A stretch of 32,822 nucleotides of DNA, taken from assembly GCA_009692615.1 (NCBI GenBank), contig SHYW01000053.1, forward strand, positions 1 through 32,822. Direction: 5' to 3'. Position numbers and translations under genes: made by a program. The notes beneath the pieces are model-generated. The model ran no database searches. It was not told where the DNA came from and saw only the letters and a list, made by a program, of their open reading frames with translations. Position 1 is the stretch's first letter. Each line of letters starts with the position of its first letter. The stretch is from Deltaproteobacteria bacterium. Its GTDB lineage: Bacteria > Desulfobacterota > Binatia > UBA9968. Shown in pieces: positions 148 through 23,871 of this stretch.

Positions 148-345
148 TTGATCGATTGGTCGTTGTCGGACGAAGGCCAGAGCGTGGTGACGAGCTTCGG
201 CCGCGTCGTGCTGCGCAAAGGCGTCAAACCAAGATTTCCCGAGCTCATGGAAAAAGAGATGTTCGTCGCCGACGGAGATTTTCTTGGGCCGATATTGGAG
301 GAGAGTGCCCGCGAGTTCAGGCAGATCTTTCTGGGCGGACGATGA
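148..345 (+). pseudogene. C-terminal remnant of an ABC-type solute-binding protein
   Basis: About 65 residues match the C-terminus of the intact binding protein at 1804-2796: IDWSLSDEGQ against VDFYLSEEGQ, then a shared LRKGV and a shared FRQIFLG/FNEIFLG-type ending. The N-terminal four fifths is missing and is replaced by insertion-sequence-like DNA. A stop codon at 145-147 lies in the same frame immediately before the remnant, so no full protein can be made here. The remnant is probably what is left of an iron(III)/family-1-type extracellular binding protein after insertion of the element on its left. It is unlikely to be functional. Confidence 0.7.
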
Positions 346-405
346 AACTGAGTCACCAGCCGGATTCTCTCGTTCCGATTATCCCGAACATCGGCAATCG
401 AAGAG

Positions 406-480
406 TTAACCACGAAAAGCACGAAATACACGAAAATTAGATCCGAGATTGTTCGTATGCTTGGTGTTTTTCGTGGTTGA
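406..480. repeat. Dispersed palindromic repeat (ACCACGAA type)
   Basis: The left arm AACCACGAAAAGCAC (from about 408) pairs with the right arm GTGTTTTTCGTGGTT (ending at about 478), with one mismatch. Repeated CACGAAA units lie between them. A second, better-paired member of the same family is at 19325-19406. The rest of 346-620 holds no recognisable gene. Confidence 0.65.
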
Positions 481-620
481 TCTCCTCCCTCCCAACCATC
501 GTTGCTGGGCCGTGGCCGTGGGATTCTTGGCATAGCCAAAGCGTTGTTATACAGTCAGCCGGGCCGGTGGCGGAATAGATTTTCCGTGGGCGAGTGAACA
601 TCTGGAATCAGGAGGATTGG

Positions 621-1655
621 ATGGAAGTAAAGTCGATCAAGGATCGTCACACCGAACTGATGATGCAGAGCGTCAAGTTCGCCAAGGATGAGCAGGGGCG
701 GCGTAAGGGGCAGGAAGTTCTTTTCAAATGGGCCGACGTCGAGAAGCAGCTGGGCGAGCATAAACATATTTATGTCGTCGATGCGCGGCTGGGCTCGAAC
801 AACCACACGCATCGGCTGTGGTACGACGTGATTCCGCCGCACACCGAAGAAGGCCAGGAGTGGAAGTCCCTCGGCCATCGCCATACGGTGGAGGCGATCA
901 TTTATTTTCTCAAAGGCCACGGCCACAGCATCATCGACGGCGTGCGCTACGATTGGGGGCCGGGAGATTTGCTCAGCGTGCCGATGTTTTCCTGGCATCG
1001 CCATATCAACGACGGCGATGAGCCGGTGCTGCGCATCGCTTCGACCACCGGGCCGCTGTCGCTGGGCTTGGGCCAAGCGGTTTACGAAGACGAACGCTTC
1101 CCGGAATTTTGGATCTACGCGCAAGAAGGCGAAGACGCGCGGAAGACTTTGATCCCCGGCGGCGGTGGCACGGTTGAAACCGCGAAGATCGGTAATAACC
1201 GCGCGGCTGAGATGTACGCCGAACAGGTCGCCTTCGCCATGCACGAGGAGCAACTGCGGCGCGACAGCAAGGTGTTGGTCAAGCAGAAAGATCTCGTCTT
1301 CGCGCCGACGGCGATGGGCAATCTCGCCTACGTGGTCGATCCGCGCATCGGCTTTCACGCCAAGGCGTTGGGCGTGGTGATGGCGGAGATCCCGCCCGGC
1401 AAACGTTCCGGCGCCCACCGCCATTTATATGACGAGATCGATCTGGTGGTCGGCGGTAAAGGCAAAGTGATCGTCGAAGACAAAGAGTACGACTTCGGTA
1501 CGCTGGACGTGTTATCGATTCCGGTGTTCCAGTGGCATCAGTATTTCAACACCGGCAGCGAGCCGCTGCGGATTCTCGGCATCAATACGCGCTTGGCGAT
1601 GGATAATCTCGGTTTGTCGTTGACCCATCAGGGCGAGCATGCGGATTATGTGTGA
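621..1655 (+). CDS. Two-domain cupin protein (gentisate 1,2-dioxygenase-like)
   Basis: This 344-residue protein has two cupin barrels. In the first, H86, H88 and E91, followed by H126 or H128, sit where cupins bind a metal. In the second, the HRH motif (H266, H268), E272 and H306 do the same. Both domains share the pattern HxH-(2-3)-E ... P-x-F-x-W-H. The arrangement resembles bicupin ring-cleaving dioxygenases such as gentisate 1,2-dioxygenase, which open hydroxylated aromatic acids with Fe(II) and O2. The true substrate is unknown, and other bicupins are possible. The ATG at 621 is chosen because AGGAGG lies five bases upstream; an upstream GTG in frame at 594 lacks this. No signal peptide is present, so it is cytoplasmic. 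It is the first gene of the same-strand catabolic run and is followed by a hairpin repeat and a binding protein. Confidence 0.75.
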   Translation: MEVKSIKDRHTELMMQSVKFAKDEQGRRKGQEVLFKWADVEKQLGEHKHIYVVDARLGSNNHTHRLWYDVIPPHTEEGQEWKSLGHRHTVEAIIYFLKGHGHSIIDGVRYDWGPGDLLSVPMFSWHRHINDGDEPVLRIASTTGPLSLGLGQAVYEDERFPEFWIYAQEGEDARKTLIPGGGGTVETAKIGNNRAAEMYAEQVAFAMHEEQLRRDSKVLVKQKDLVFAPTAMGNLAYVVDPRIGFHAKALGVVMAEIPPGKRSGAHRHLYDEIDLVVGGKGKVIVEDKEYDFGTLDVLSIPVFQWHQYFNTGSEPLRILGINTRLAMDNLGLSLTHQGEHADYV

Positions 1656-1669
1656 GGCGGTTTTCTAAA

Positions 1670-1754
1670 CCCTCTCCCTTTGGGAGAGGGCAGGGCGACC
1701 GCCGGTCGCCCCTACAAGAGCCCTCATCTCAGTCCTCTCCCAGAGGGAGAGGAA
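1670..1754 (+). repeat. Composite hairpin repeat, copy 1
   Basis: This is a full-length copy. A CCTCTCCC/GGGAGAGG hairpin comes first, then the palindrome GGGCGACC-GCC-GGTCGCCC with CTACAAGAG, then a second CCTCTCCC/GGGAGAGG hairpin. It lies between the bicupin stop and the next start, ending 50 bases before the ATG. Confidence 0.85.
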
Positions 1755-1803
1755 GTTGGAAAGTACAATATTCAATTCCGATGATGATATCGAAGGCGTT
1801 GTA

Positions 1804-2796
1804 ATGATTCGTTTCATTGCGCTGTTGCTGTTGTCGATTATCGCATTGCCGCTTGATGCCAAAACGGCGGAAGTCGATTTGGCGCGCAAGGAAGGCGAGG
1901 TCGTGCTTTACACCACCATGGTGTTGTCCGACTTCCAAGTGTTTCAGCGGGCGATCGCCAAGAGATATCCTTTTCTCAAGGTCAACCATGTGCGGCTGGG
2001 CGCGGCGACGTTGGCGGTGCGCGCCATCGCCGAGTTTCGCGCCGGCAAGCAGTTGACCGATGTCTTCGGCCATACTCCCGATTCGATGAATTACCTGCGG
2101 GACATCGGCCTCCTGGCGCAGTACGTCAGTCCCGAGGTTAAGTTTCTCCATCAAGGTTATATGGATCCCAAAGGTTTTTGGACCGGTATCAACACCGATA
2201 TTTTGGTTACCGGCGTCAACACGACGCAGATGTCGCTGGCCAAGGCACCGCGTAGCTACGCCGACTACTTGAAACCGGAGTACAAAGGAAAAATCGCTTT
2301 TCACATCGGTACGAATAATCCGCTCATCGGCATGACCGAGCTGCGCGGCGAAGAGAAAGCGCTGGCGTTCATGCGCGCCTTCGCCAAGCAGGGGCTGATC
2401 GCGCACAACGGCTATACGAAAATATCCCAGCTGCTCGCCGCCGGGGAATTTCCCATCGTCGCGTTCATGCAGGTGACCAAGCTGGAAAAAATTCGCGAGC
2501 GCGGCGGCCCAGTCGACTGGCTGACCCTCGATCCATCTTTCGCCACGGTGTCGTCGGTGGCGATCGCCAAAAACGCGCCCCATCCCAACGCGGCTCGGCT
2601 GCTGGTGGATTTCTACTTGTCTGAAGAGGGGCAGAAGGCGCTGCGCGAGATCGATAAAATTCCCTTGCGCAAGGGCGTCGAGGCCGACTCGAAACGGGTC
2701 GCCGAGTTGGTCGAGCGCACGCCCCATGTGATTAAATATGAAGGCGACGCCGGCAAGCAGATAAAACTATTCAATGAAATATTTTTGGGACGGTGA
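1804..2796 (+). CDS. Periplasmic solute-binding protein (family 1, Fe(III)-type)
   Basis: The protein is 330 residues, with an N-terminal signal peptide (hydrophobic LLLLSIIALPL core, likely cut after the Ala near residue 19). It then begins with EGEVVLYTT and continues with a layout typical of extracellular binding proteins of the AfuA/Fbp-like group: a GVNTT strand near the middle and a C-terminal LVDFYLSEEGQ helix. Such proteins capture a ligand in the periplasm and deliver it to an ABC permease. No ATPase or permease gene is nearby, so the ligand and partner are unknown. The ATG at 1804 is chosen because the upstream in-frame TTG at 1756 begins inside a dispersed repeat and would bury the signal peptide. 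The truncated gene at 148-345 is a paralogue, suggesting former duplication around the bicupin. Confidence 0.8.
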   Translation: MIRFIALLLLSIIALPLDAKTAEVDLARKEGEVVLYTTMVLSDFQVFQRAIAKRYPFLKVNHVRLGAATLAVRAIAEFRAGKQLTDVFGHTPDSMNYLRDIGLLAQYVSPEVKFLHQGYMDPKGFWTGINTDILVTGVNTTQMSLAKAPRSYADYLKPEYKGKIAFHIGTNNPLIGMTELRGEEKALAFMRAFAKQGLIAHNGYTKISQLLAAGEFPIVAFMQVTKLEKIRERGGPVDWLTLDPSFATVSSVAIAKNAPHPNAARLLVDFYLSEEGQKALREIDKIPLRKGVEADSKRVAELVERTPHVIKYEGDAGKQIKLFNEIFLGR

Positions 2797-2800
2797 AACG

Positions 2801-2868
2801 GCAAGGGCGACCGCCGGCCGCCCTTGCAAGAGCCCTCACCTCGATCCTCTCCCAGAGGGCGAGGAAGT
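2801..2868 (+). repeat. Composite hairpin repeat, copy 2
   Basis: This copy lacks the first CCTCTCCC hairpin. It keeps the central palindrome (here GGGCGACCGCCGGCCGCCC), then TTGCAAGAGCCCTCACC, and the second hairpin with one substitution in its arm. It is oriented with the genes and ends 31 bases before the next ATG. Confidence 0.8.
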
Positions 2869-2898
2869 AAGAGGCTCGACGCTACCTTGGAGTAAACG

Positions 2899-4050
2899 AT
2901 GGAAGTGAAATTCGGACTTTTCAGTTGTGATTCCCACGCGCAGTTGGACCGCGACGCGTGGACCAAGAGATTGTCCAAGGCGAAGTGGGGCGAGCGGATT
3001 CCGCAGATCGTCGAAGTCGACGAGGCCGGCAAGAAGGTCGATCGTTGGATGGTCAACGGCAAAGTGCGTAGCGAGTGGGTGTGCAACTGTCCGGCGGCGA
3101 TGGAGGGCGGCGTGGCGCGCGGTTATTACCCGAAGCGCTGGGAGGAAGTCCCGAAGATTGTTTACGATCCGACGGAACGGTTGAAAGCTTTGGACGACGA
3201 TCGCGTCGACGGCGAAGTGCTCTATCCCAACGGTCCGGTGTCGAACTTCGCTTTTTTACAGGCCGATGCCGAGTTCGAACTAACTTGCGTGCAGGCGTAC
3301 AACGACGCCCTCGCCGAGTGGCGCCAAGTGAGCGACCGCTATGTGCCGGTGGCGATCATTCCTTATATGAGCGACATCGACGTTGTCGTCGCCGAAGTCG
3401 AGCGCGCGGTCAAGCTCGGCCATCGCGGTGTGGTTATGCTGGCCGAGCCGGCGTTTACGAAAAAAGGTTTAAGGCGCATGAACGATCCGTTTTGGGAGCC
3501 GCTGTGGGCGTGCTGCGCCGACTTGGGCGTGCCGATGCATTGGCATGGCTCTTCCGGTTTGGTCGAGCAGTTGTCGCTGCCGAAATGGGACGGCTTCACC
3601 AAAAAAGAATTTCACACCGTCTCGACTTCGCGTTTATGCGCGACGCCGGCGCAGTTGATTCCCAATTTAATTTTCTCCGGCATTCTCGACCGTCATCCGC
3701 GCCTCAACTGGGCCTGCGCCGAAACCGGTTTCGGCTGGGTGAGCTACGTGCTCGAAGCCAGCGATCACGAGTGGGAGCAGCGCCAGCTGTGGAAGGAAGG
3801 GATCAAAACCAAACCGAGTGAAGTGTTTCGCCGGCAAATCTACGTCGACTTCTGGTACGAGAAGGCCGGCATCGAACTGCGCGAGCTGGTCGGCGTCGAC
3901 AACATCATGTGGGAGTCGGACTATCCGCATATCGCCGCGACTTATCCAAAATCATGGAGCTTCGTCGAAGCGTCGCTGGTCGGCGTGCCGGAAGATGAGC
4001 GGAAGAAAATGTGCTATGGCAATGCGCTACGGTTGTACGGGCTGGTTTGA
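2899..4050 (+). CDS. Amidohydrolase-2 family metal hydrolase/decarboxylase (COG2159)
   Basis: This 383-residue protein belongs to the ACMSD/LigW-like branch of the amidohydrolase superfamily. These TIM-barrel enzymes hydrolyse or decarboxylate, often on aromatic acids, with one divalent metal. Visible landmarks are D11-x-H13 at the N-terminus, H214 and H216 in VPMHWHGSS, E275 in CAETGFGW and D341-Y-P-H344 in MWESDYPH. D341 corresponds to the conserved metal-binding or catalytic aspartate. The ATG at 2899 has a weak GGAG a few bases upstream. No signal peptide is seen. It is clearly related to the next gene (shared AWTKRLSKAKWGERIP-type start, VYDP-ERLKA, VQAYND), which has lost the Asp and His of the last motif. 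The substrate is unknown. Confidence 0.85.
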   Translation: MEVKFGLFSCDSHAQLDRDAWTKRLSKAKWGERIPQIVEVDEAGKKVDRWMVNGKVRSEWVCNCPAAMEGGVARGYYPKRWEEVPKIVYDPTERLKALDDDRVDGEVLYPNGPVSNFAFLQADAEFELTCVQAYNDALAEWRQVSDRYVPVAIIPYMSDIDVVVAEVERAVKLGHRGVVMLAEPAFTKKGLRRMNDPFWEPLWACCADLGVPMHWHGSSGLVEQLSLPKWDGFTKKEFHTVSTSRLCATPAQLIPNLIFSGILDRHPRLNWACAETGFGWVSYVLEASDHEWEQRQLWKEGIKTKPSEVFRRQIYVDFWYEKAGIELRELVGVDNIMWESDYPHIAATYPKSWSFVEASLVGVPEDERKKMCYGNALRLYGLV

Positions 4051-4069
4051 GCAGCCTCGTTCTTGGTCG

Positions 4070-4151
4070 TCATGCCGGTGAAAACCGGCATCCAGGTTGT
4101 GGTTGTGCGGCACGCTTGAATGCTGGATACCGGCCTTCGCCGGTATGACAG
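4070..4151. repeat. Dispersed inverted repeat (CCGGCATCCAG/CTGGATACCGG type)
   Basis: GTCATGCCGGTG followed by CCGGCATCCAG faces CTGGATACCGG followed by CCGGTATGAC. This makes an imperfect palindrome of about 80 bases between the two amidohydrolase genes. It resembles a repeat type widespread in proteobacterial genomes. Confidence 0.75.
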
Positions 4152-4193
4152 ATAGGAAGACAGAAATCGTTTTTCGATGAAAGCATAATTTAC

Positions 4194-5336
4194 ATGACAA
4201 CAACGAATTCATTCATCAGCGTCGACGAACATGTGCAGGAACATCTCGATGTTTGGACCAAGCGATTGTCTTCGGCAAAGTGGGGTAAGCGCATCCCGCA
4301 TGTCGAGGAAAATTCCAACGGCGTCGAGCGCTGGTTTGTTGATGGCCGCGAAGTTCCGCTCAACGGCGTCGCCGATTGCGGCGCGGCGATGGCCGAGCGG
4401 ACGAACAATCCACAGCGTTGGTCCGAAGTCCCCTCGGTCGTTTACGATCCTAAAGAGCGCTTGAAAGCGATGGACGCGGCGGGCATCGATCATGCCGTGC
4501 TCTATCCGACCATCGCTGGTGTCGGCGGGCAAACTTTTGGGTGCATCGAAGATTCAGAATTAGAACTGGCCTGCGTGCAAGCCTACAACGACTGGGTGAT
4601 TGAAGAGTGGGCGAGGGTGAGCCCGCGGTTCATTCCACAGTGCATCGTGCCGCTGTTTCCAGCTGATGCCGCGGTGCGCGAGATTCGCCGCTGTGTGGCT
4701 AACGGTCACCGCGGCGTGATCTATCCGTCGATCCCGATGGAGCTGCGCGCCGTGCCGCATATCAACGACGCGGCTTACGATCCGATTTGGGCGGTGTGTC
4801 AGGAACTCAACGTGCCGATCTGTTTTCACGCCGGCGCGTCGAGCAAGATTCAGATTCCGGCTTACGAAGGCTATTCGCCGACTCTCGCCGCCGCGGTGCA
4901 GTCGATCACGCGGCCGGCGAGCTCGGTGTCGGTGTTGGTCAACTTGCTGATTTCGAAAATCCTCATGCGCTTTCCAAGTCTCAAAGTCGTGCTCGCCGAG
5001 AGCGGCCTCGGTTGGGGCGCTTATTTGCTGGAGTACACCGACTTTCAAGCCACCGGCGATCAGTTGCCGCAGAACGGTTACGAACTGATGCCGTCGGCGC
5101 TGTTCAAGCGGCAGTGCTATCTGGTCGGTTGGTACGATCGCGCCAGTTTGCGCGTGCGCGATTACATCGGCACGGAAAATATTCTCTGGTCGAGCCAGTT
5201 TCCCCAGGCGACTTCGACTTGGCCCAACACGCAAGCGGCGCTGGCGAAAAGTTTTGACGGTGTGAGCGAGAGCGATAAACGTAAGATACTTTGGCACAAC
5301 GCAGCCAAGCTGTATAAGATCGAACGCACCGGCTAG
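4194..5336 (+). CDS. Amidohydrolase-2 paralogue with altered active site
   Basis: This 380-residue protein is homologous to the preceding gene over its full length (WTKRLSSAKWGKRIP, PQRWSEVPSVVYDPKERLKA, LACVQAYND). It keeps D11-x-H13, H212 in PICFHAGAS and E269 in LAESGLGW. The final motif reads LWSSQFPQ (Q335, Q338) where the paralogue has MWESDYPH, so both the conserved Asp and the following His are Gln. In ACMSD-like enzymes that Asp binds metal or activates water, so this protein may be inactive, may work differently, or may act as a partner of the neighbour, since many family members are oligomers. The ATG at 4194 has no strong ribosome-binding site. The stop is a TAG that appears genuine. 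Confidence 0.8.
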   Translation: MTTTNSFISVDEHVQEHLDVWTKRLSSAKWGKRIPHVEENSNGVERWFVDGREVPLNGVADCGAAMAERTNNPQRWSEVPSVVYDPKERLKAMDAAGIDHAVLYPTIAGVGGQTFGCIEDSELELACVQAYNDWVIEEWARVSPRFIPQCIVPLFPADAAVREIRRCVANGHRGVIYPSIPMELRAVPHINDAAYDPIWAVCQELNVPICFHAGASSKIQIPAYEGYSPTLAAAVQSITRPASSVSVLVNLLISKILMRFPSLKVVLAESGLGWGAYLLEYTDFQATGDQLPQNGYELMPSALFKRQCYLVGWYDRASLRVRDYIGTENILWSSQFPQATSTWPNTQAALAKSFDGVSESDKRKILWHNAAKLYKIERTG

Positions 5337-5344
5337 ACCGTTTT

Positions 5345-5438
5345 GTCCTCTCTCCCCTTGCGGGAGAGAGTTAGAGTGAGGGGTGTTTTCGATCCGGCAC
5401 CCTCACCTCAATCCTCTCCCGTCGAGGGAGAGGATGTA
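5345..5438 (+). repeat. Composite hairpin repeat, copy 3 (variant)
   Basis: The first hairpin (CTCTCCCC-TTGC-GGGAGAG) is followed by GAGTGAGGGGTG, which can pair with CACCCTCAC, and then by CCTCTCCC-GTCGA-GGGAGAGG. The GGGCGACC core is absent and is replaced by TTTTCGATCCGG. It lies 83 bases before the next ATG. Confidence 0.8.
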
Positions 5439-5520
5439 AGATTGAAGATTCGCAAGGTTGAGATGCTCAGTTCTATTTTTCCAACGAACTAGCGAGAGAA
5501 AAGCTGTAGAGGATAGTTTA

Positions 5521-6201
5521 ATGTCCCATTGGCCGAAAATACGCCCGACTATCGATGAGATGGTCAACCAACAGTTCGATACCCCTGAGTTCAAGAAACT
5601 CTTTGCGGTAACGCTCACCCCCGGGCGGGTCGCCATCTATCAGAACCACATGACCTTCTACGCCAACAATCGGCGCGACTGCTGGGCGTTCGTCGCCGGT
5701 AAAGCGCCCCTCGACGTCAAGCGCGCGATCTGGGCGCACGAGAAAGACGAGCTGATTCACGACGAGCGCATGGGGCGCGCCCATGTGACCGAGGATGATT
5801 TGCAAGCGGGCGATGAATCTATGCTCAATCCCGGCGCTAAAGCTGCTTACTATGTTTGGCTTTACTGCACGCGCGACAAACCGTGGCTCGAAGGGTTGAT
5901 TTATTCGCATATTCTCGAGCGGCGCAACAACAACGCGATTGTCAAAGGCGGCGGCTTGGTCGAGCGCTGGAAGCGCAAGCAGCGGGCGGAAATGGGAAAC
6001 AAGACAGCGGACAAAGATTTTCAAACCGAAGTGCATGCGGTCGCCGACGAAGATCATTCGGATATCTTCGAGCCGATTTTTCAACGCTACGTCGACAGCG
6101 AAGCGGCTGCGCAAGCGGTGCTGGCGGCGACGCGGGACGGCTTGGTGATCGATCGCGCGTTGCGCGGCGCCCTGGCGGATGCGATGTTGGCGGTGGAGTG
6201 A
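5521..6201 (+). CDS. Haem-oxygenase-like diiron oxidase (HDO) / TenA-PqqC-fold protein
   Basis: This 226-residue, mostly helical protein has a ligand pattern matching haem-oxygenase-like diiron oxidases: E77-x2-H80 in the KDELIHDE helix, E133 in HILERRN, and H172-x3-D176-x2-H179 in VHAVADEDH. The spacing resembles that recalled for UndA and CADD. Such enzymes use two irons and O2 for oxidative C-C, C-N or N-oxygenation chemistry, and the fold also includes TenA and PqqC. The family call and ligands are strong; the substrate is unknown. The ATG at 5521 is chosen because translation from an upstream in-frame start at 5458 would begin just past a dispersed repeat and add residues of non-family appearance. 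It sits between an amidohydrolase and a nitroreductase in the catabolic run. Confidence 0.75.
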   Translation: MSHWPKIRPTIDEMVNQQFDTPEFKKLFAVTLTPGRVAIYQNHMTFYANNRRDCWAFVAGKAPLDVKRAIWAHEKDELIHDERMGRAHVTEDDLQAGDESMLNPGAKAAYYVWLYCTRDKPWLEGLIYSHILERRNNNAIVKGGGLVERWKRKQRAEMGNKTADKDFQTEVHAVADEDHSDIFEPIFQRYVDSEAAAQAVLAATRDGLVIDRALRGALADAMLAVE

Positions 6202-6239
6202 ATTGAATATTTATTAGATGTATTTGAGCCGGCGTGAAA

Positions 6240-6286
6240 CTTAGCACCCCTACTCTAACTCTCCTCCGTCGAGGGGGAGAGAATCG
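6240..6286 (+). repeat. Composite hairpin repeat, copy 4 (partial)
   Basis: Only the 3' part is present: CACCCCTACTCTAAC leads into a CTCTCC-TCCGTCGAGG-GGAGAG hairpin. It ends 50 bases before the nitroreductase start. Confidence 0.65.
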
Positions 6287-6335
6287 GATTCGCAGGCCGC
6301 GGTAAAGTCGGCGCTGTAGACTATGGAGTGTGTGA

Positions 6336-7121
6336 ATGTCCAGTAACAATGAAACCTATGACATGCTGCTCAAGCTGGTGAAGACGCGCCACAGCGTGCG
6401 CAAGTTCAAAGCCGATCCGATTCCTGAAGATACCATTAACAAGATTCTCGAAGTCGCCCGCTGGGCGATGTCGGGGGCCAACTCGCAGCCCTGGGAGTTC
6501 ATCGTCGTCACCGATCCCAAAACTAAAAAAGAGCTACGCGACGCTTACTCGGAATACAACACGGATCTTATTTTCTGGATGGAGCAGCAGCGCGAGTACA
6601 GCTTGCGCCATCCTTCCTATCAAGTGAAAAACGACCCGCATGAATCGCTGCGCTTCAACAAAGCCAAGGCCAATTGGCATGAAGCGCCGGCGGTCATCGT
6701 CGTGTTGGGCGATGGCCGGCGCCAATGGGGCACGGTGATGGGCGCGCATACTTTTGGCCGCGATCAATCGCACTTGACCGACGGCTTGGCGAATGCTTCT
6801 TTCTTGCTCCATCTCGCCATCGCGTCGCTCGGCTTAACTTCCGAATGGGTGTCGATTCACATCGAGGAGCCGCACAAACGCATTCTCGGCGTGCCGGACC
6901 TGCTAAAACTTTATCTGATCATACCGATCGGCTACCCAGACGTTTCTAGCCGAGGCGAAGGCGTGCGCCGGCCGCTTGAGGATATGGTCCACCGCGAGCG
7001 CTACGACATGAGCAAGTACATGTCCAATGAGGATGTGATCAAGTATCTCTACTCGCTGCGTGAAGCGACGGTGCCGATCCACTCGGCGTCGCGCTCGGTT
7101 AAGGCGGACGAGAAAACCTAA
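6336..7121 (+). CDS. Nitroreductase-family FMN oxidoreductase
   Basis: This 261-residue protein has the FMN-phosphate-binding start RHSVRKF (residues 18-24) and SGANSQPWEF (46-55) typical of the nitroreductase superfamily. A later LASLGLTSEW-like stretch matches the second conserved block, and GYP near residue 204 matches the third. Family members reduce nitro groups, quinones, enones or flavins with NAD(P)H; some dehalogenate or fragment flavin. At 261 residues it is longer than the usual 190-220, with an inserted central segment (about 75-120) containing FWMEQQREYSLRHP. This segment may cover the active site as in specialised subfamilies. The ATG at 6336 follows GGAG. The neighbouring catabolic genes suggest reduction of an organic intermediate. 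The substrate is unknown. Confidence 0.85.
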   Translation: MSSNNETYDMLLKLVKTRHSVRKFKADPIPEDTINKILEVARWAMSGANSQPWEFIVVTDPKTKKELRDAYSEYNTDLIFWMEQQREYSLRHPSYQVKNDPHESLRFNKAKANWHEAPAVIVVLGDGRRQWGTVMGAHTFGRDQSHLTDGLANASFLLHLAIASLGLTSEWVSIHIEEPHKRILGVPDLLKLYLIIPIGYPDVSSRGEGVRRPLEDMVHRERYDMSKYMSNEDVIKYLYSLREATVPIHSASRSVKADEKT

Positions 7122-7184
7122 CCAAACATAAATGAAAAAAAGATGACTCGCGCAAAGATCCAAAGGGCATCAAGACAAAAATTC

Positions 7185-7332
7185 GAAGCACGAAATTCGA
7201 AATCCGAAACAAATTCAAATGACCAAAAAACTAAATGTTACAAACAACCCTGATTCGGATTCCTCGTTTTGGATTTTCCACATTTTGGATTATTTTGGCC
7301 GCGTTTGTTTCGGATTTCGGATTTCGTGCTTC
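7185..7332. repeat. Long inverted repeat A (29-bp arms, 90-nt loop)
   Basis: The left arm is at 7185-7213 (GAAGCACGAAA, an 8-nt variable core, CCGAAACAAA) and the right arm at 7304-7332. They pair with a single mismatch. The 90-nt spacer is nearly identical to that of the copy at 14101-14258. The 7122-7410 gap contains no credible gene besides this element. Confidence 0.85.
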
Positions 7333-7410
7333 GGATTTATTTCGCAGGCGTACCGGCGCAGTAAATTTGTTTAAGTCGTTCTGTTTATCATGTCAAAGGT
7401 AAGAATCTAA

Positions 7411-9087
7411 ATGGCCCTGTCCCCCGTCAATCCGATCACCGTCGAGGTCGTGCGCAACGGCTTGGCGCATATCGCCAACGAGATGGCCACCGTGCTGCGC
7501 AAGACTTCCTACAACATGATGATCTACGAGGTGCGCGACTACTGCGTCGGCATCGTCGATCCCGATGGTAATATCTTGTCGCAAAATTTCGGCGCGCTGC
7601 CGATCTTTCTCGCCGATCTCGGCCCGGCCATCGTCGACGGCGTGCGCATGCATGGGCGGGACGGTTTCCGGCCGGGCGACGTGCTGCTGATGAATCATCC
7701 CTACGTCTGCGGCCAGCACTTAAACAATGTCGTGGTCTACACGCCGTTCTTTCATGACGGCGAGCTGGTGGCGTTTCTCGCCGTGCGCGCCCATTGGATC
7801 GACATCGGTGGCCGGCCCATGGGGTTCGGATTCAGCGGCACGCGGGAAGTTTATGAAGAAGGGTTGCAGTTTCGTTCGCTGAAACTTTATCGCGGCGAGC
7901 AGCTCAATCAGGAAATTTTTCAGATCATCACCGACAACGTGCGTTTCGCCGAATCTTCCCTGGGCGATCTGCGCGCGCAGATCGCCGCCTGCCGGGTCGG
8001 CGACCGCGGCCTCGGTGGACTGGTGAGCCGTTACCGTTTAAATTCATTCTTGCAATGCGTGCGGAAAATCTGGCAGCAGTCCGAAGCTTTGGCGCGCGAG
8101 CAAGTAGCGCGGATCAAGCCGGGCAGCTATGCAGCCGAGGCGTTGTTCGATAGCGACGGCGTTAATCTCGACAAGCCGGTGCCGCTGAAAGTCAAAGTAA
8201 TAGTTGCCGGCAGCGACATGACCATCGATTTCTCCGAGATCAGCGAGCAAGTGGCGGGCTCGATCAATTCCGGCGAGTCGGGCGCGGTGGCGGCGGCGCG
8301 GGTCGCGTTCAAATCGTTAGTCGCACCCTATTCGCCTATCGACGAAGGCTGCTTTCGCGCTCTAAAAGTTATCATCCCGCCGGGAAAAATTTTGAGCGCC
8401 ACCCCGCCGTCCCCGGTGGGTAACTGGAGCCGCACGCTGCCAACGGTGATCGATCTAATTCTCCGCGCGCTGGCGCCAGCGATGCCGGAGCGCGTCGCGG
8501 CGGGACATAAGGGCGACATGGGCGGCTACGCATTTTTCGGTGTCAATCCGAAAACCGGCAGAAGATTTCTCTGCCAGACGATCATGGGCGGCGGCTGGGG
8601 TGGACGCGCGCATGAAGACGGCGAGAACGCGACGGTATCGATGTGCCAGGGCGACGTGCAGAACGCGCCGGTGGAGTTGCAAGAAATTTATTATCCAGTC
8701 TTGATCGAGCGCCAACAATTGCGCGAGGGCAGCGGCGGCAGTGGAAAATTTCGCGGCGGCCTCGGCATCGAAGTTAGCGTGCGCGTGCTCTGCGACGCGT
8801 CGACCAATATCAACGTCGAACGCCAGCGCACCGCGCCTTGGGGATTGTTTGGCGGCGAGTGCGGCGAGAAGGCGAAAGCGTTGGTCAAACAATCGCCCGA
8901 CGATCCGGGCATGTGGCTCACGAAAAAGCCGAACTATTCATTGAAGCAAGGCGGCAGCGTGACGTTCTTCACCGCGGGTGGCGGCGGGTACGGTGTCGTG
9001 CAAGAGCGCTCGGGAGAATTGATCGAGCGGGATGCGCGACTGGGTTACATGCCGGTGAAAATTAGTCGGTCGAGTGGCGGCGAGTGA
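7411..9087 (+). CDS. hyuB: Hydantoinase B / oxoprolinase family protein (HyuB)
   Basis: This 558-residue protein begins with ITVEVVRNGLAHIANEM, the classic HyuB N-terminus. GDVLLMNHPY-CGQHLNNVV (around residues 90-108) and the C-terminal GSGGSGKFRGGLGIE and GGGGYG stretches are also typical. HyuB pairs with the ATP-hydrolysing HyuA to open hydantoin, N-methylhydantoin or 5-oxoproline rings; relatives are subunits of acetone carboxylase. Its probable partner, HyuA, is at 15707-17743 on the same strand but about 6.6 kb away, which is unusual because the two are normally adjacent. The ATG at 7411 is preceded by AAGGTAAG. The protein is cytoplasmic. The exact ring substrate cannot be deduced. Confidence 0.85.
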   Translation: MALSPVNPITVEVVRNGLAHIANEMATVLRKTSYNMMIYEVRDYCVGIVDPDGNILSQNFGALPIFLADLGPAIVDGVRMHGRDGFRPGDVLLMNHPYVCGQHLNNVVVYTPFFHDGELVAFLAVRAHWIDIGGRPMGFGFSGTREVYEEGLQFRSLKLYRGEQLNQEIFQIITDNVRFAESSLGDLRAQIAACRVGDRGLGGLVSRYRLNSFLQCVRKIWQQSEALAREQVARIKPGSYAAEALFDSDGVNLDKPVPLKVKVIVAGSDMTIDFSEISEQVAGSINSGESGAVAAARVAFKSLVAPYSPIDEGCFRALKVIIPPGKILSATPPSPVGNWSRTLPTVIDLILRALAPAMPERVAAGHKGDMGGYAFFGVNPKTGRRFLCQTIMGGGWGGRAHEDGENATVSMCQGDVQNAPVELQEIYYPVLIERQQLREGSGGSGKFRGGLGIEVSVRVLCDASTNINVERQRTAPWGLFGGECGEKAKALVKQSPDDPGMWLTKKPNYSLKQGGSVTFFTAGGGGYGVVQERSGELIERDARLGYMPVKISRSSGGE

Positions 9088-9122
9088 CATGCGAATGAAT
9101 CGTTCAGAGCGAAGAAATCTTA

Positions 9123-9194
9123 ACCCCCTCGCCCATTCCGATGGGAGAGGGCAGGGGTGAGGGCAAGGGCGACCGCCGGTCGCCCCTACAAGAG
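9123..9194 (+). repeat. Composite hairpin repeat, copy 5
   Basis: It contains CCCTCGCCCATTCCGATGGGAGAGGG, then GGTGAGGGC and the palindrome GGGCGACCGCCGGTCGCCC with CTACAAGAG. The second terminal hairpin is missing. It ends 15 bases before the next start codon. Confidence 0.8.
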
Positions 9195-9208
9195 TCAAGG
9201 AAAAAGAA

Positions 9209-10210
9209 ATGGCGAAACTGATGAAGAAAAAAATCACTCGGCGAGCTTTTTGCTCGCTGCTCTTGGCTCTTCCCTTTTCTGCTCGGGCGCAGCAGCCGAA
9301 GAAAGTTCCGCTCGTAGGGTATCTATCGTCGGGCAATGCAGCTAGTGAATCCGCCCGTTCCGAAGGAATTCGGCTAGCTCTGCGCGCGCGTGGCTACATA
9401 GAAGGACAGAACATTGCTACGGAGTACCGATATGGGGAGGGAAGGAACGATCGGCTTCCTGCGCTCGCGGCCGAGCTGGTGCGACTCAAGGTTGATATCT
9501 TCGTGGTAGCAGGAGGGACACCGGCGGTCCGAGTGGCCAAGAACGCGACCAAGACGATTCCCATAGTTATGGTGGGCGGTGGTACCGATCCTGTCGAGTC
9601 AGGGCTGGTTGACAGCCTTGCCCATCCCGGCGGCAACGTCACGGGCGTTACAAACCTGACCAGAAAACTAGGCGGGAAACGACTCGATCTGCTCAAAGAA
9701 GCGCTTCCCAAAGTTGTCCGTGTCGCGGTTATCCACGAAACTGCCAGTCCGGCTACTGCAATCGAGCTGAAAGAGATCCAGGCTGCGGCGCACGCGTTGA
9801 AGTTGACTATCTAGCCTTGGGAGATGCGAACTGCGGAAGATTTCGAGAAGGTATTCGCGGCATTAAACAAGCAACGCCCGGATGGACTCTACGTGCTCGA
9901 TAGCCCACTACTGGGTGTTAACCGAAAACGGATCGTGGACTTTGCGTTAAAGAGGCGGTTGCCGTCGACGTACCAGAGCAGAGACGCTGTAGAGGCGGGC
10001 GGGCTCATGTACTACGGGGCGGACCAAACGGAAAGTTACCAGCGCATCGCGTATTATGTGGACAGAATCTTGAAGGGAGCTAAGCCCGCCGATCTGCCGG
10101 TGGAGCAGCCGATGCGGTTTGAGTTCATCATCAATTTGAAGACGGCTAAGCAGATCGGCGTGAACATCGATCCGAATGTAATGGCGCGGGCGACCAAGTT
10201 GATCAAGTGA
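9209..10210 (+). pseudogene. Tat-exported ABC substrate-binding protein (ABC_sub_bind), broken by in-frame TAG
   Basis: Reading through one TAG at 9812-9814 gives a full-length protein of about 333 residues of the ABC_sub_bind (PF04392) type. It is a close paralogue of the intact gene at 11202-12194. The TAG falls exactly where the paralogue has CAG (Gln) in LKLTI-Q-PWE, so a single C-to-T change explains it. The N-terminus has a twin-arginine signal (KKITRRAFCSLLLALP) ending in SARA. Downstream of the stop the frame stays open and conserved to a normal C-terminus (NLKTAKQIGVN...ATKLIK), so the mutation is recent or is a sequence error. A truncated 201-residue product would lack half of the binding fold. 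Other genes here end in TAG, so general recoding is unlikely. Confidence 0.8.
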
Positions 10211-10368
10211 ATCGAGATCCTTCACGTTCGCTCAGAGCTTGCCCTGAGACGATCGAAGGGACAAGTTTTAGATTTTTGTCTGCGGGGCCGCTTTGTTGCG
10301 ATATAAGAAAGCTGTTGAGTCAAACCGCGAGAAGGAAGTAAGCTTTGTGGTAAAAGGGTGAACGAACG

Positions 10369-10683
10369 ATGAAGACGAACCACGTCAAAGACAACCTGCC
10401 GAAGGAGAAGATCGCCGAGTTCTGCCGCCGTCATCACATTCGCAAGCTGGCGGTGTTTGGCTCGGCGTTGCGAGAAGATTTTCGCCCCGACAGCGACCTG
10501 GACGTGCTGGTGGAGTTCGATCCGGAGCACACCCCTGGTCTGGCGTTTTTTGGGATGGAGCACGAGCTTTCCGAATTGCTCGGACGAAAGGTAGACTTGA
10601 ACACGCCGCAGTTTCTGAGCCCCTACTTCCGCGACAAAGTGCTGGCAGAGGCGGAGGTGCAATATGCCGAGCCACGACACTAG
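10369..10683 (+). CDS. mntA: MNT-domain nucleotidyltransferase antitoxin (MntA-type)
   Basis: This 104-residue minimal nucleotidyltransferase has the signature GSx10DxD: G31-S32 ... D43-L-D45. In HEPN/MNT (type VII) toxin-antitoxin systems this protein inactivates the partner toxin by adding AMP units to a tyrosine near the toxin's active site. The gene overlaps the next by 20 bases, a normal arrangement for this module. The ATG at 10369 opens the conserved fold soon after, and no upstream alternative is needed. It lies between a broken binding-protein gene and an orphan fragment of another. The leader at 10211-10368 has a CTCAGAGCTTGCCCTGAG-like fragment resembling a dispersed repeat. Confidence 0.85.
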
Positions 10684-11008
10684 CGTGCGGTTGCGCCACA
10701 TGCTCGACGCGGCGCGCGAGGCGGCGCAAATGGCGCAGGGCAGGACTCGCGCGGATTTGGATACTGACCGTCCTCTCAACCTTTCGTTGGTGCGCTTGCT
10801 GGAGATCGTCGGCGAAGCAGCGAGCCGCGTTCCGGTTGGTGAGCGCGCACAATACTCTGGCATTCCGTGGGTGCAGATCGTCGGCCTTCGCAACCGGCTC
10901 ATCCACGGCTACGACAACGTCGACTTCGACATTCTCTGGGAGATCGTCACCCAAGATCTCACGCCTCTGATTGCTGAATTGGAGAAGATATTTTCTTCGA
11001 CGCCGTAG
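10664..11008 (+). CDS. hepT: HEPN-domain RNase toxin (HepT/DUF86)
   Basis: This 114-residue all-helical protein has the HEPN catalytic motif Rx4HxY: R76, H81 and Y83 in RNRLIHGY. HepT toxins cleave RNA as dimers, and the Tyr is the residue AMPylated by the MNT partner. The start at 10664 has a strong GGAGGTG just upstream, inside the end of the antitoxin gene. The complete motifs in both partners suggest a functional module that stabilises this region or acts in phage defence. Downstream, an orphan tail of an ABC_sub_bind gene begins about 45 bases after the stop. Confidence 0.88.
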
Positions 11009-15706: not shown

Positions 15707-17743
15707 ATGAGAATTGCAGTTGATATCGGTGGAACGTTTACTGATTTAGTCGCGGTTGACGACGACGGGCAAGTTTCTCGCAGCAAGTCGCTGACGACGC
15801 CGGACGATTTGGCGCGCGGCATCGGCGATTGTTTGAAAGGCGCCAATGTCGACGTCGCCGGCGCGAGTTTCTTCGTGCATGGCTCGACGGTGACGATCAA
15901 CGCCGTGCTCGAACGCAAGGGCGCGCGCACGGGATTGATCACCACCAAAGGCTTTCGCGACGTTTACGAAATCGGCCGCGGTAATCGGCCGGAGGGCTAC
16001 AATTTATTTTTCAAGCGGCCGGTGCCGCTGGTGCCGCGCGATTTGCGTTTGGAAGTCGACGAGCGGCTTTACGCCACCGGCGAAATCCTCACGCCCCTCG
16101 ATGAACAGTCGGCGGCGGCAACCATCGGCGCGCTCAAGCAGGCCGGAGTGGAAAGCGTTGCAGTCTGCTTGCTCCATGGTTACGCCAACGCGGCCCATGA
16201 AAAACGTTTGGGTGAACTGTTGCGCCAGCAGTTTTCCGAAGCCTATGTATCGCTGTCGCACGAGATTCTCCGCGAGTTCCGCGAGTACGAACGCACGTCG
16301 ACGACGGTATTGAATTCCTACGTCGGCCCGCTGGTCAGCCGCTACTTAGTCTCGCTGGAAAAAATGCTCGGCGCCGCCGGCTTTCGCGGGACGTTTCGTG
16401 TCATGCAATCCAACGGCGGCGTGATGTCGGCGGAGACGGCGAAAAAAATGCCGGTGACGATGATGGAGTCGGGACCGGTGGCGGGCGTCATCGCGGCGGC
16501 GCATCTCGGCGAGTCGCTGGGCTGTCGCCATATTATTTCCTTCGACATGGGCGGCACCACGGCGAAGTCGAGCTTGATCAAGGATTTTCATCCCGAAGTG
16601 ACCAGCAGTTACTATGTCGGCGGTTACGTCACCGGCCATCCGATGATGCTGCCGGTGGTCGATATCGTGGAAGTCGGCAACGGCGGCGGCAGCATCGCTT
16701 GGCTCGATGCCGCTGGCGGTTTGAAAGTCGGGCCGCAGAGCGCCGGCGCGGCGCCAGGGCCCGCGTGCTACGGCAAAGGCGGCGCCGAGCCGACGGTCAC
16801 CGACGCCAATCTGATCGCCGGCCGCATCGACGGCGATTATTTTCTCGGCAGCGGCATTCGCTTGCAGCGCGACCAAGCGGCGGCGGCGATCATGGAAAAA
16901 ATCGGTAAACCGCTTGGCTTGTCATTAGAAGAGGCGGCGCTGGGGATCCTCACCATCGCCAACTTCAACATGTCGTTGTCGGTGCGCGCCGTTTCGGTCG
17001 AGAAGGGCTACGATCCGCGCGACTGCGTGTTGGTGCCGAGCGGCGGCGGCGGCGCGCTCCACGCCATGGCGATCGCCCGCGAGCTGTCCGTGCCGCGGGT
17101 TATCATTCCGCCCATGCCCGCACACTTCTCCGCGCTCGGCATGTTGATGGCCGATTTGAAACATGACTACGTGCAAACCTTCGTGCGCGAGTTGGCCGAG
17201 ACCACGGGAGCGCAGATCGCCGATGCGTTCGCCGTGTTGGAAAAGTCGGCCACCGATACGTTGACCGAAGAAGGCAGCAAAGCGGAACAAATTGTTTTAC
17301 GCCGCTTCTTGGACATGCGTTACCGCGGCCAAGAATATACGCTGCCGGTGCCGGTCACCGAAGATCTGCGCGGCGTCGCCGATTTCAGCGCGATCCGTGG
17401 GCGCTTCGATCAATTGCATCAAGAACACTACGGTCACTCGGCGCCCAAGGAGCCGGTGATGATGGTAAATCTTCGACTTTCGGCATTAGGCAAGTTCGAC
17501 AACAAGTTGCCGTTGGTAACAACGTCGCGCGCAGAGGATCGCGGCGAACGGGGCCGGCGCCCGGTGATTTTCGAAAGCCTGCCGGTGGATTGCCCGATCT
17601 ATTTGCGCAGCGGCTTCAAAGCCGGCGATCAATTGGCCGGACCGGCGGTGATCGAAGAGTTGGGCGCGACGATTCTGCTTTATCCCGGCGACAAGATGGT
17701 GGTGAATGAGTTCGGACAGTTGGTGATCGAGGTCGGGAGCTGA
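15707..17743 (+). CDS. hyuA: Hydantoinase A / oxoprolinase family protein (HyuA)
   Basis: This 678-residue protein begins with the actin-like ATPase start DIGGTFTDLVAVD (residues 5-17) and has FDMGGTTAK (279-287) and GGGGALHA near 445-452, as in HyuA and 5-oxoprolinases. It uses ATP to activate the amide of a hydantoin-like ring. The C-terminal part (MRYRGQEYTLPVPV; AGPAVIEE) is also typical. Its normal partner HyuB is encoded at 7411-9087, separated by SBPs, toxin-antitoxin genes and two M24-fold genes. The start at 15707 has GAAAGG just upstream. It sits next to the creatinase-fold pair, and creatinine and N-methylhydantoin routes use this enzyme class in some bacteria. The substrate remains open. 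Confidence 0.88.
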   Translation: MRIAVDIGGTFTDLVAVDDDGQVSRSKSLTTPDDLARGIGDCLKGANVDVAGASFFVHGSTVTINAVLERKGARTGLITTKGFRDVYEIGRGNRPEGYNLFFKRPVPLVPRDLRLEVDERLYATGEILTPLDEQSAAATIGALKQAGVESVAVCLLHGYANAAHEKRLGELLRQQFSEAYVSLSHEILREFREYERTSTTVLNSYVGPLVSRYLVSLEKMLGAAGFRGTFRVMQSNGGVMSAETAKKMPVTMMESGPVAGVIAAAHLGESLGCRHIISFDMGGTTAKSSLIKDFHPEVTSSYYVGGYVTGHPMMLPVVDIVEVGNGGGSIAWLDAAGGLKVGPQSAGAAPGPACYGKGGAEPTVTDANLIAGRIDGDYFLGSGIRLQRDQAAAAIMEKIGKPLGLSLEEAALGILTIANFNMSLSVRAVSVEKGYDPRDCVLVPSGGGGALHAMAIARELSVPRVIIPPMPAHFSALGMLMADLKHDYVQTFVRELAETTGAQIADAFAVLEKSATDTLTEEGSKAEQIVLRRFLDMRYRGQEYTLPVPVTEDLRGVADFSAIRGRFDQLHQEHYGHSAPKEPVMMVNLRLSALGKFDNKLPLVTTSRAEDRGERGRRPVIFESLPVDCPIYLRSGFKAGDQLAGPAVIEELGATILLYPGDKMVVNEFGQLVIEVGS

Positions 17744-20600: not shown

Positions 20601-20626
20601 AATATCTTAATAGCGGAGGAGTGACG

Positions 20627-21667
20627 ATGAAGACGATTTTGATAATCGGCTTGCGGATGTTTTTAGTCGTGAGTTTCTTATTCATGCCTGGGATTCCGTT
20701 GCGATCTGCGTTAGCCAAAATGGACTGTAGCGCGGGCAGCGCGGGCAACGATCTGCCGCGGACGGCGGCGATTGCGACCAATCCTGCGGGGACTGGGGCG
20801 CATGCATTAGGCGCTGGCCTTGCCGCGGTGGCGGGCAAAGTCACCGCCATTTCGCTGAAAGTTCAACCCTACAACGGGCCTAACGCTTGGATGCCGCTGA
20901 TGGAAAGCGACGAGTTGGAAATGGGTGTGCTCAATATTCTCGATTCGCAAATGGCCGCCACTGGCACTGGCAATTACAAAAAGGCCTACCCGATGTTGCG
21001 GGTCATCGCTGGCGGGGTTTTTCCGTTCACCGGAGGGGTGATGGTGCGCGACAAATCGGACATCAAGCAATTGAGCGATTTGAAAGGAAAGCGGATGGCC
21101 TGGGATTTTGGCGGTCACGCGATCTCTCAGACCTACTTGAACGCGGTCTTAGAGACGGGAGGTGTAAAGCCGAGCGATGTGCAACAGGTGCGAGTATCCA
21201 ACGTTAATGACGGCATTCGCGCCGTTCCCGAAGGAAAAGTTGATGCTACCTGGGCGTCGCTGGGTACGGGAACCAATGAGGAAGCCAATGCCATGGAGCC
21301 GGTGCGCTTTTTGCCGGTGCCCAATACCGATGCGGCGAACAAGATTCTCGGCCGCTACGGCGGATCGGTGGTCAAGGCGACTCCGTCGGCCGGTGTGCGC
21401 GGCGAGACTTATGTGCTGGGCTATGCGCTGCACATCGTCGGTTCGAGCAAGATGAGCGATCGCGCCGTTACCGCGCTGACCAAGGCTTGGTGGGACAATT
21501 TGGCCGAGCTGCAAACCATCCATCCGTTGTTCAAACAATGGACCAAGGACAACCAGGCGATCACCAATTTCACGATTCCCTATCACTCCGGCGCGGTAAA
21601 ATTCTATAAAGACGTCGGGGTGTGGACGGCGAAGCACGATGCACGGACTAAAGAGATCTGCGGCTAG
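20627..21667 (+). CDS. TAXI-family TRAP solute-binding protein 1
   Basis: This 346-residue exported protein has a signal peptide (hydrophobic MFLVVSFLFMPGIPL, cut near ALA). It carries the TAXI (TRAP-associated extracytoplasmic immunogenic) hallmarks: AIATNPAGTGAHALG, GVLNILDSQMAATGTGNYKKA, a VRDKSDIKQLSDLKGK block, DFGGHA, and VDATWASLGTGTNEEANAMEP. It delivers a carboxylate-like or other organic ligand to the TRAP permease. The start at 20627 has GGAGGA six bases upstream. It is the first of three tandem paralogues before one fused permease. Confidence 0.88.
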   Translation: MKTILIIGLRMFLVVSFLFMPGIPLRSALAKMDCSAGSAGNDLPRTAAIATNPAGTGAHALGAGLAAVAGKVTAISLKVQPYNGPNAWMPLMESDELEMGVLNILDSQMAATGTGNYKKAYPMLRVIAGGVFPFTGGVMVRDKSDIKQLSDLKGKRMAWDFGGHAISQTYLNAVLETGGVKPSDVQQVRVSNVNDGIRAVPEGKVDATWASLGTGTNEEANAMEPVRFLPVPNTDAANKILGRYGGSVVKATPSAGVRGETYVLGYALHIVGSSKMSDRAVTALTKAWWDNLAELQTIHPLFKQWTKDNQAITNFTIPYHSGAVKFYKDVGVWTAKHDARTKEICG

Positions 21668-21688
21668 GAAGAATGGAGCGATGGATTA

Positions 21689-22738
21689 ATGAGTGTCAAT
21701 AAACGTTGGGCGGGTTTCGTTGCCCTATACATTATTGATTTGTTGGTGCTGCCTCTGGCTTTGTCGATCGCTTCGGCTAACGCCAAGATCGACTGCGGGC
21801 CGGTGGTGAACAAGGGCAACGATCTCGCCCGCAGCGTCGCGATCGGTACCAGTCCGGCCGGTACTGGGGCATTTTCCTTAGGCTCTGGATTGGCCGCGGT
21901 GGCGAGCAAGGCAACGCCGATCATCGCCAAGGTTCAGCCCTACGCCGGCCCCAACACCTTTGTCCCGCTGCTCGAAAGCGGCGAGCTGGAGTTTGGTATC
22001 ATCAATATTCTCGACGCTCACATGGCCATGACCGGCACGGGCACTTATAAGAAAGCTTATCCCAGTCTGCGCGTGCTCACCGGCGGCGTGTTTCCGTTTA
22101 CCGGCGGCATCATGGTGCGCGATAAGTCCGATATCAAGCAGGTCAGCGATCTCAAGGGTAAAAAGCTGGCCTGGGACTTTGGCGGCCACGCGGTGATCCA
22201 GGCGTTGTTTAACGCGGCCCTGGAAACCGGCGGCGTGAAACCGTCCGACATCACCCAGGTGCGGATGTCCACATCCAACGACGGCATCCGCGGCGTCGCC
22301 GAGGGCAAAGTCGATGCCACTTACGCTTCCCTCGGCACCGGCACCAACGAAGAGGCCAATGCCATGGAGCCGGTGCGCTTTCTCAACATTCCCAATACCG
22401 AGGCGAACAACAAGATTCTTAGCAAACTCGGCAGCTCGGTGGTTAAAGCCGATCCGGCCACCGGCATTCGCGGCGAGACTTATATCGTCGGCTATCCGCT
22501 CCATCTGCTGACTTCGACCAAGGTCAATGAACGCACGGTACAGGCGGTGCTCAAAGCCTGGTGGGACAACTACGCTGAGCTACAGACGATCCATCCGCTG
22601 TTCAAGCAGTTCACCAAGGATGTTCAGGCGATTAGCAATTTCACCATCCCGTACCACCCTGGTTCGGTGAAGTTCTACAAGGACGCTGGGGTGTGGACCG
22701 CCAAGCATGACGCACGAACAAAAGAGATTTGTGGATGA
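21689..22738 (+). CDS. TAXI-family TRAP solute-binding protein 2
   Basis: This 349-residue paralogue of the preceding gene starts 22 bases after its stop. The signal peptide (hydrophobic core YIIDLLVLPLALSIASANA) is followed by mature protein with GTSPAGTGAFSLG, NILDAHMAMTGTGTYKKA, SDIKQVSDLKGKK, DFGGHAVIQ and GTGTNEEANAMEPVRFLNIPN. Pocket-region differences from its neighbours (for example AFSLG against AHALG) suggest a different ligand preference, though this is only an inference. It is part of the four-gene TRAP operon. Confidence 0.88.
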   Translation: MSVNKRWAGFVALYIIDLLVLPLALSIASANAKIDCGPVVNKGNDLARSVAIGTSPAGTGAFSLGSGLAAVASKATPIIAKVQPYAGPNTFVPLLESGELEFGIINILDAHMAMTGTGTYKKAYPSLRVLTGGVFPFTGGIMVRDKSDIKQVSDLKGKKLAWDFGGHAVIQALFNAALETGGVKPSDITQVRMSTSNDGIRGVAEGKVDATYASLGTGTNEEANAMEPVRFLNIPNTEANNKILSKLGSSVVKADPATGIRGETYIVGYPLHLLTSTKVNERTVQAVLKAWWDNYAELQTIHPLFKQFTKDVQAISNFTIPYHPGSVKFYKDAGVWTAKHDARTKEICG

Positions 22739-22777
22739 GAATATCGGCATGATGGAGTAACCAGGAGTGTTGGAGCT

Positions 22778-23827: not shown

Positions 23828-23871
23828 CGGACCCTCTGGATTCGTCGCCTAACCTCGACGAGGAGAATCTC

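Follow-up and report, generated by a model that had tools for sequence, protein, structure and literature searches.

The window analysed here is the whole of contig SHYW01000053.1 (32,822 nucleotides) of the Deltaproteobacteria bacterium assembly GCA_009692615.1, a member of the Binatia, and the subject is the forward-strand gene at 5521-6201. An earlier note, made from the sequence alone, had read its product as a haem-oxygenase-like diiron oxidase inside a catabolic cluster. Haem-oxygenase-like dimetal oxidases and oxygenases (HDOs) are known mainly from the making of natural products; the family described here is often encoded next to enzymes that break aromatic rings or remove carboxyl groups, and this hints at a part in aromatic-acid degradation. 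In the available text of a 2026 review, about a dozen HDOs count as validated and 'catabol' is used once, for haem (PMC13108848).

The gene and its surroundings

Seven genes follow one another on the forward strand: bicupin, solute-binding protein, two PF04909 proteins, HDO, nitroreductase-family protein and hydantoinase B. The bicupin (594-1655; Cupin_2, 9.7e-28) is a remote relative of gentisate and 5-aminosalicylate 1,2-dioxygenases (gentisate dioxygenase 3bu7, 2.1e-15), and the solute-binding protein (1756-2796) is of the SBP_bac_6 type (1.5e-20). The first PF04909 protein (2899-4050; 4.2e-28) carries the motifs DSHxxL and SDYPH and is closest, among solved proteins, to PtmU3 (6.6e-35); the second (4194-5336; 2.8e-32) carries DEHxxE and SQFPQ and is closest to DitZ (5.3e-42), then PtmU3. 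Downstream of the HDO gene lies that of a nitroreductase-family flavoprotein (6336-7121; PF00881, 7.9e-27; BluB model, 81 bits against a cut-off of 150), a possible reductant by position only. The neighbours are those named in the note, an amidohydrolase upstream and a nitroreductase downstream, except that two PF04909 genes are in fact found in a row.

Translation of 5521-6201 gives 226 residues and a stop, as the note had it. The start methionine is common to the orthologues, and AGAGGA, resembling a ribosome-binding site, is found at 5508-5513, seven bases upstream of the ATG. The ratio of non-synonymous to synonymous substitution (dN/dS) against three orthologues (91, 86 and 77% identity) was 0.046, 0.046 and 0.097, with dS near saturation at 1.2-1.7. 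The gene is genuine and under purifying selection. A promoter and terminator scan of 300-9300 gave three promoter-like sites (3.7 expected) and 17 terminator-like sites (10.8 expected, sd 3.4), and no use was made of it.

Predicted metal site and fold

Conservation was counted over 101 distinct family sequences with a profile score above 150. E77 (codon at 5749-5751), H88 (5782-5784) and E133 (5917-5919) are each invariant, and in H172-x3-D176-x2-H179 (6034-6057) the three predicted ligands are kept in 100, 98 and 99 members respectively. All six residues, a set of three histidines and three carboxylates, are present in 98/101; the frame ends before the last columns in two of the incomplete members, and the third has Glu at D176. 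The ligands proposed in the note were E77, H80, E133, H172, D176 and H179. Each of these residues is present at its position and a full set does exist, but it is formed by E77-x10-H88 and not by E77-x2-H80. Position 80 (5758-5760) is His in only 4/101 members (Phe 20, Gly 16, Arg 15, Lys 15, Asn 13, Tyr 8, Glu 8), and on this ground H80 was rejected as a metal ligand; it is replaced by H88, which the note had overlooked.

H73 and E74, each kept in 99/101, were also considered as ligands and were abandoned once H88 was found to be invariant; they may have a second-sphere or extra-ligand role. HDOs of the SznF type (3H/4C) have a seventh carboxylate ligand on an auxiliary helix, for which E74 would be at most a tentative candidate. 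The spacing from Glu to His is 10-11 residues in core members and 6 in the divergent L033 and L047. Further conserved residues are W122 and G144 (101/101), R52 and W55 (100/101) and R51 and R149 (98/101), and one may guess that the conserved arginines hold the carboxylate of the substrate.

AlphaFold2 models computed with 30 and 48 family sequences had pLDDT values of 93.2 and 94.7. In the model, helix 64-78 has E77 close to its end, E133 is in helix 122-134 and H172 to H179 are in helix 167-181; H88 falls in a turn that is modelled less confidently (pLDDT block 82-84). Foldseek gave CADD as the top match (3.5e-4). The VIA Z scores of the first model were 19.5 for CADD, 19.4 for HrmI, 19.2 for SSO2700, 19.1 for PqqC, 18.1 for FlcD, 17.5 for BesC, 17.1 for UndA and 16.9 for PolF, and 17.4 and lower for TenA homologues. 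The haem-oxygenase-like fold implied in the note is supported by prediction, with matches to solved HDOs at Z 16.9-19.5. CADD, HrmI, SSO2700 and PqqC are tied, however (19.0-19.5), so that the fold alone cannot separate an HDO from PqqC or TenA; the residues do. SznF is not among the 50 structural matches listed, which excludes nothing.

As a single query at a threshold of E 0.1, the window protein had no hit to any model of Pfam or NCBIfam. In the PDB it found nothing but ankyrin designs (E 0.01-0.02), and plasmid records gave no match. A profile of 30 members, run against solved proteins, had SSO2700 (PDB 4lqx) as its best match (1.4e-19), followed by a 4-aminobenzoate synthase (4.6e-11), a functionally unassigned TENA/THI-4 protein (1.6e-7) and CADD (1.2e-6). 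The 4-aminobenzoate synthase is the nearest protein of known function; in a second search it matched at 1.2e-12, and PqqC reached no better than 5.7e-7, across half of the length. Closer homology to a TenA or PqqC member of known function, named in the note as the finding that would speak against its assignment, was not seen in the profiles, and the structural scores are tied. PF14518 (Haem_oxygenas_2, 'Iron-containing redox enzyme') is matched by 23/30 relatives at E 0.01 and TENA_THI-4 by 19/30.

The six ligand columns can be aligned with CADD by profile, and with SSO2700 in part. H88, E133, H172, D176 and H179 align with the 4-aminobenzoate synthase, E77 falling in a gap, and in the CADD alignment E77 lies on a Glu placed six residues ahead of the His that is aligned with H88; these two CADD residues are presumably its metal ligands E81 and H88. 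We infer with high confidence that the window protein is a dimetal HDO, which would bind its metals and react with O2.

Distribution and gene neighbourhoods

The window HDO is one of about ten paralogues. There are 10 matches to it in its own genome, the last two weak, and 12 profile matches at E 1e-8 in each of the relatives G028 (one contig) and G033 (four contigs). Of 58 genomes examined, among them that of the window, 25 had matches at E 1e-3; the 23 genomes of the same class outside the window's order had none. When genomes were sampled evenly across the phylum, 2/247 matched at E 1e-15, one being that of the window and the other matching weakly. A scan of species genomes seeded with a pattern yielded 39 loci, mostly titled Deltaproteobacteria or Candidatus Binatia metagenome-assembled genome (MAG); six (L080-L084 and L086) are titled Alphaproteobacteria, Rhodospirillales, Chloroflexi or Proteobacteria. 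The expansion lies within one order of Binatia-labelled MAGs.

Neighbourhoods were counted for 59 clusters with 101 HDO genes, a different set from the 101 distinct sequences above, after removal of the duplicate loci L050, L060, L061 and L073. Genes were called, and neighbours clustered and profiled, with custom scripts, and for two high-GC relatives with poor gene calls profile matches on all frames were used. The loci were chosen for holding an HDO, many contigs are short, and loci from related genomes cannot be counted as independent. A bicupin on the same strand is found within 350 bp in 26/59 clusters and within 2.6 kb in 29/59. VOC-type proteins are found within 1 kb in 12/59, PF04909 proteins within 2.6 kb in 13/59 and UbiD within 5 kb in 20/59. 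In the window's own subclade of seven loci, PF04909 is present within 2.6 kb in all seven and a bicupin within 5 kb in five, so the linkage with amidohydrolase and bicupin that the note had proposed to look for is recurrent. No bicupin was seen in L048, a subclade member whose contig ends 120 bases past the HDO.

Circular-shift tests were made in G028 and G033 (one genus; for G033 the 4.09 Mb contig only), with nine loci each, including divergent matches to E 1e-9. A bicupin lay within 300 bp of 3/9 HDO loci in G028 and 2/9 in G033, values reached by 4 and 93 of 20,000 shifts respectively. UbiD lay within 3 kb of 3/9 loci (0.7% of shifts) and 4/9 loci (0.2%). Five of the nine HDO-linked bicupins, including that of L036 in the window's subclade, match the models of 5-aminosalicylate and gentisate 1,2-dioxygenases at 2.3e-72 to 1.1e-101, and three C-terminal histidines (275, 277 and 315) are invariant in 12/12 aligned bicupins.

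UbiD and PF04909 are singly weak witnesses, because there are so many copies per genome: 48, 43, 41, 34 and 38 of UbiD in the HDO-carrying G000, G001, G019, G028 and G033, and 116 (G028) and 97 (G033) matches to PF04909 in genomes of about 4.2 Mb. No paper on the multiplication of UbiD in Binatota was found in a single search of the open literature.

Proposed role

Judged from the gene neighbourhoods alone, the HDO probably acts in catabolism rather than in biosynthesis. In the mechanism envisaged, a dimetal centre (Fe/Fe or Mn/Fe) would be held by E77, H88, E133, H172, D176 and H179. With O2 bound, the reduced enzyme would oxygenate an aromatic acid bearing a hydroxy or amino group, and the product would be the substrate for ring cleavage by the clustered bicupin dioxygenase; the PF04909 pair would act on carboxyl groups or add another step. 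That the HDO oxygenates ahead of a ring-cleaving bicupin, with this class of substrate and this order of steps, is put forward tentatively, as the likeliest reading but one a little short of even probability. A wider version is more doubtful still. It holds that a branch of HDOs, expanded inside a single uncultured order and partly active as heteromeric paralogue pairs, would carry out the ring oxygenation that Rieske or flavin hydroxylases perform in other bacteria and pass the product to gentisate-type bicupins, the window's subclade standing beside a heteromeric PF04909 pair.

Several observations weigh against the proposed role. All the bicupins tested score below the equivalog cut-offs and 4/9 are weak or silent. 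That of the window is remote, matching the 5-aminosalicylate (NCBIfam MabB) and gentisate models at 4.8e-22 and 1.6e-14 and missing their equivalog scores (78.8 bits against 650 and 53.6 against 442). No bicupin, PF04909, UbiD or VOC gene is present within 5 kb of 8/59 clusters, and the 17.6 kb contig of the closely related L028 lacks a bicupin. The bicupin excess fades at 5 kb (52 of 20,000 shifts as high in G028 and 1665 of 20,000 in G033). Some multi-HDO clusters carry gamma-glutamyltransferase, split thiamine pyrophosphate (TPP) enzymes and sulfonate-type binding proteins. UbiD is present in 61, 62, 44 and 125 copies in the family members G009-G012, where the HDO was not detected, and this abundance weakens UbiD as a specific partner of the HDO. 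Rieske alpha subunits (PF00848) number 2, 5, 0, 4 and 3 in G000, G001, G019, G028 and G033; with PF00848 present in 4/5 genomes tested, an argument from the absence of Rieske hydroxylases is unclean.

Alternative explanations

The neighbours just mentioned also bear on a different substrate. The protein may be a dimetal HDO that acts on an amino acid, sulfonate, phosphonate or other aliphatic acid, like most characterised HDOs, in a mixed locus where the ring-cleavage genes are separate. SsuA-type and 2-aminoethylphosphonate-type binding proteins, gamma-glutamyltransferase, split TPP enzymes and EutA, which adjoins 6/59 clusters, are indeed found near some members. On the other hand, the binding-protein matches are far below the equivalog cut-offs, and the close same-strand bicupin in 26/59 clusters, above chance in two genomes, speaks against this reading. 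An aliphatic substrate for the window HDO is somewhat unlikely, and the mixed neighbours make a single substrate class for the whole family unlikely as well. The gamma-glutamyltransferase gene lies inside the multi-HDO clusters L035, L055, L056, L058 and L062, and L035 also has the split TPP-enzyme genes.

A second question is whether many members are heteromers of two diverged HDO subunits, with the window HDO working together with a heteromeric PF04909 pair. More than one HDO is present in 25/59 clusters. The 42 neighbouring HDO pairs are 31-63% identical (median 43%), and in all 42 each of the two HDOs resembles a gene on some other contig more than it does its partner; the pairs are therefore old and recurrent. 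Recurring partner subclades are seen in the tree, for example two HDO genes between EutA and a bicupin in L030, L038, L068 and L072. The tree has a midpoint root and some long branches; it omits frames of fewer than 190 residues, the copies L050, L060, L061 and L073, and also L052, which is no copy. These recurrent, diverged pairs suggest that heteromeric HDO enzymes may exist. A different arrangement, three HDOs flanked by VOC-type proteins, is the same in five genomes (L057, L058, L062, L064 and L089).

The PF04909 pair recurs in L028, L036, L041, L048, L049, L052, L053, L056 and L067 besides the window, and its motifs are complementary in several genomes: one protein keeps SDYPH or SDFPH and is without the acid of DxHxxE, and the other is the reverse. 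Such complementary loss hints at a heteromer in which a single subunit is catalytic, and AibH1H2, as described in the available part of PMC10401708, is a precedent. Against this, the second PF04909 protein lacks a motif His in L036 and L052, and further motif residues in L052, so that an oxygenase site is doubtful there and the protein may be a mere scaffold. The window HDO itself has no HDO neighbour, and adjacency is not contact. Heteromers as the general form of the family, with the window HDO joined to the PF04909 pair, are rather unlikely. A PF04909 protein near an HDO in L046 (7313-8608) keeps the PtmU3 motifs, with PtmU3 as its best solved match (5.1e-43), and is a candidate dinuclear oxygenase.

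It is improbable that the window protein is a metal-free protein like TenA or PqqC, or a metal protein without O2 chemistry such as a hydrolase. The fold is common to PqqC and TenA homologues, TENA_THI-4 is matched by many relatives and THI5-like binding proteins occur near some members. The synthesis of the PqqC and TenA types is metal-independent, however (PMC13108848, text available in part), whereas six residues of metal-binding type are kept in 98/101 members here. Nor is the linkage to THI5-like (NMT1) proteins convincing: at 3 kb it is equalled by 2.6% of shifts in G028, which is weak, and by 30% in G033, which is not above chance. NMT1 proteins were for that reason dropped as a hallmark partner.

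Lastly, the protein might be a self-sacrificing 4-aminobenzoate synthase like CADD or NePabS, the nearest known function by profile and, in CADD, the best fold match. These enzymes sacrifice Y27/25 and K152/159 (PMC11965152, available in part); in the window protein F24 and W150 stand in the aligned places. Tyr occurs at position 24 in 21/101 members and Lys is not among the commonest residues at 150, the alignment near 150 being unsure because Lys stands two places on (152) in 43/101. With the sacrificed residues not kept, and since some ten copies would be needless for one self-sacrificing enzyme, this identity is highly improbable.

Other features of the window

The genes of hydantoinase B (7411-9087) and A (15707-17743) are on the same strand, about 6.6 kb apart. 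A reverse-strand reading frame of 226 residues (10222-10902), between two genes for TrpX-type binding proteins, has no Pfam or NCBIfam match and low bias in third-position GC, and may be spurious. At 20621-25833, three successive NMT1_3 binding-protein genes precede a DctM transporter gene.

Significance

If true, an HDO family tied to ring cleavage would extend HDO chemistry to carbon turnover by uncultured bacteria. No paper joining 'heme oxygenase-like' with 'gentisate' or 'ring cleavage' was found in the open literature, and the words aromatic, gentisate, UbiD, benzoate, heme oxygenase and amidohydrolase were all absent in a word search of the main text, as available, of the Binatota genome paper (PMC8262859). 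The link to bicupins offers a bicupin-coupled assay for deorphaning the family, and the paired paralogues make heteromeric HDOs testable. The correction of the ligand set changes the first residue to mutate, which is H88 and not H80.

Comparison with known systems

CADD and NePabS resemble the window protein in fold, in profile match and in the columns E, H, E and H-x3-D-x2-H, which can be aligned. They differ in the spacing of the first Glu and His (x6, against x10-11 in the core of the window family), and the window family has many paralogues, neighbours of catabolic type and no conservation of the sacrificed Tyr and Lys. UndA, BesC, HrmI, FlcD and PolF share the predicted fold and the set of three histidines and three carboxylates, with only 9-15% identity to the window HDO in structural alignments. 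Characterised HDOs have this same set and carry out fatty-acid or natural-product chemistry (PMC13108848, in its available text). SSO2700, a TENA/THI-4 protein, is the best profile match and among the best in fold, yet it has no known function and lies outside the expansion. PF14518 takes in most of the family members searched but not, at E 0.1, the window protein itself.

Among the neighbours, five of the nine HDO-linked bicupins are like gentisate and 5-aminosalicylate 1,2-dioxygenases, whereas that of the window is remote from them. The PF04909 neighbours were compared with the amidohydrolase-related dinuclear oxygenases PtmU3, AibH1H2 and SfbO. PtmU3 and AibH2 are described as such oxygenases, and AibH1H2 as a heteromer of two PF04909-type proteins, in the available parts of PMC10811679 and PMC10401708. 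Like AibH1H2, the window pair is encoded by two adjacent genes. Unlike PtmU3, which keeps both motif acids, each window PF04909 protein is short of one of them, a putative ligand.
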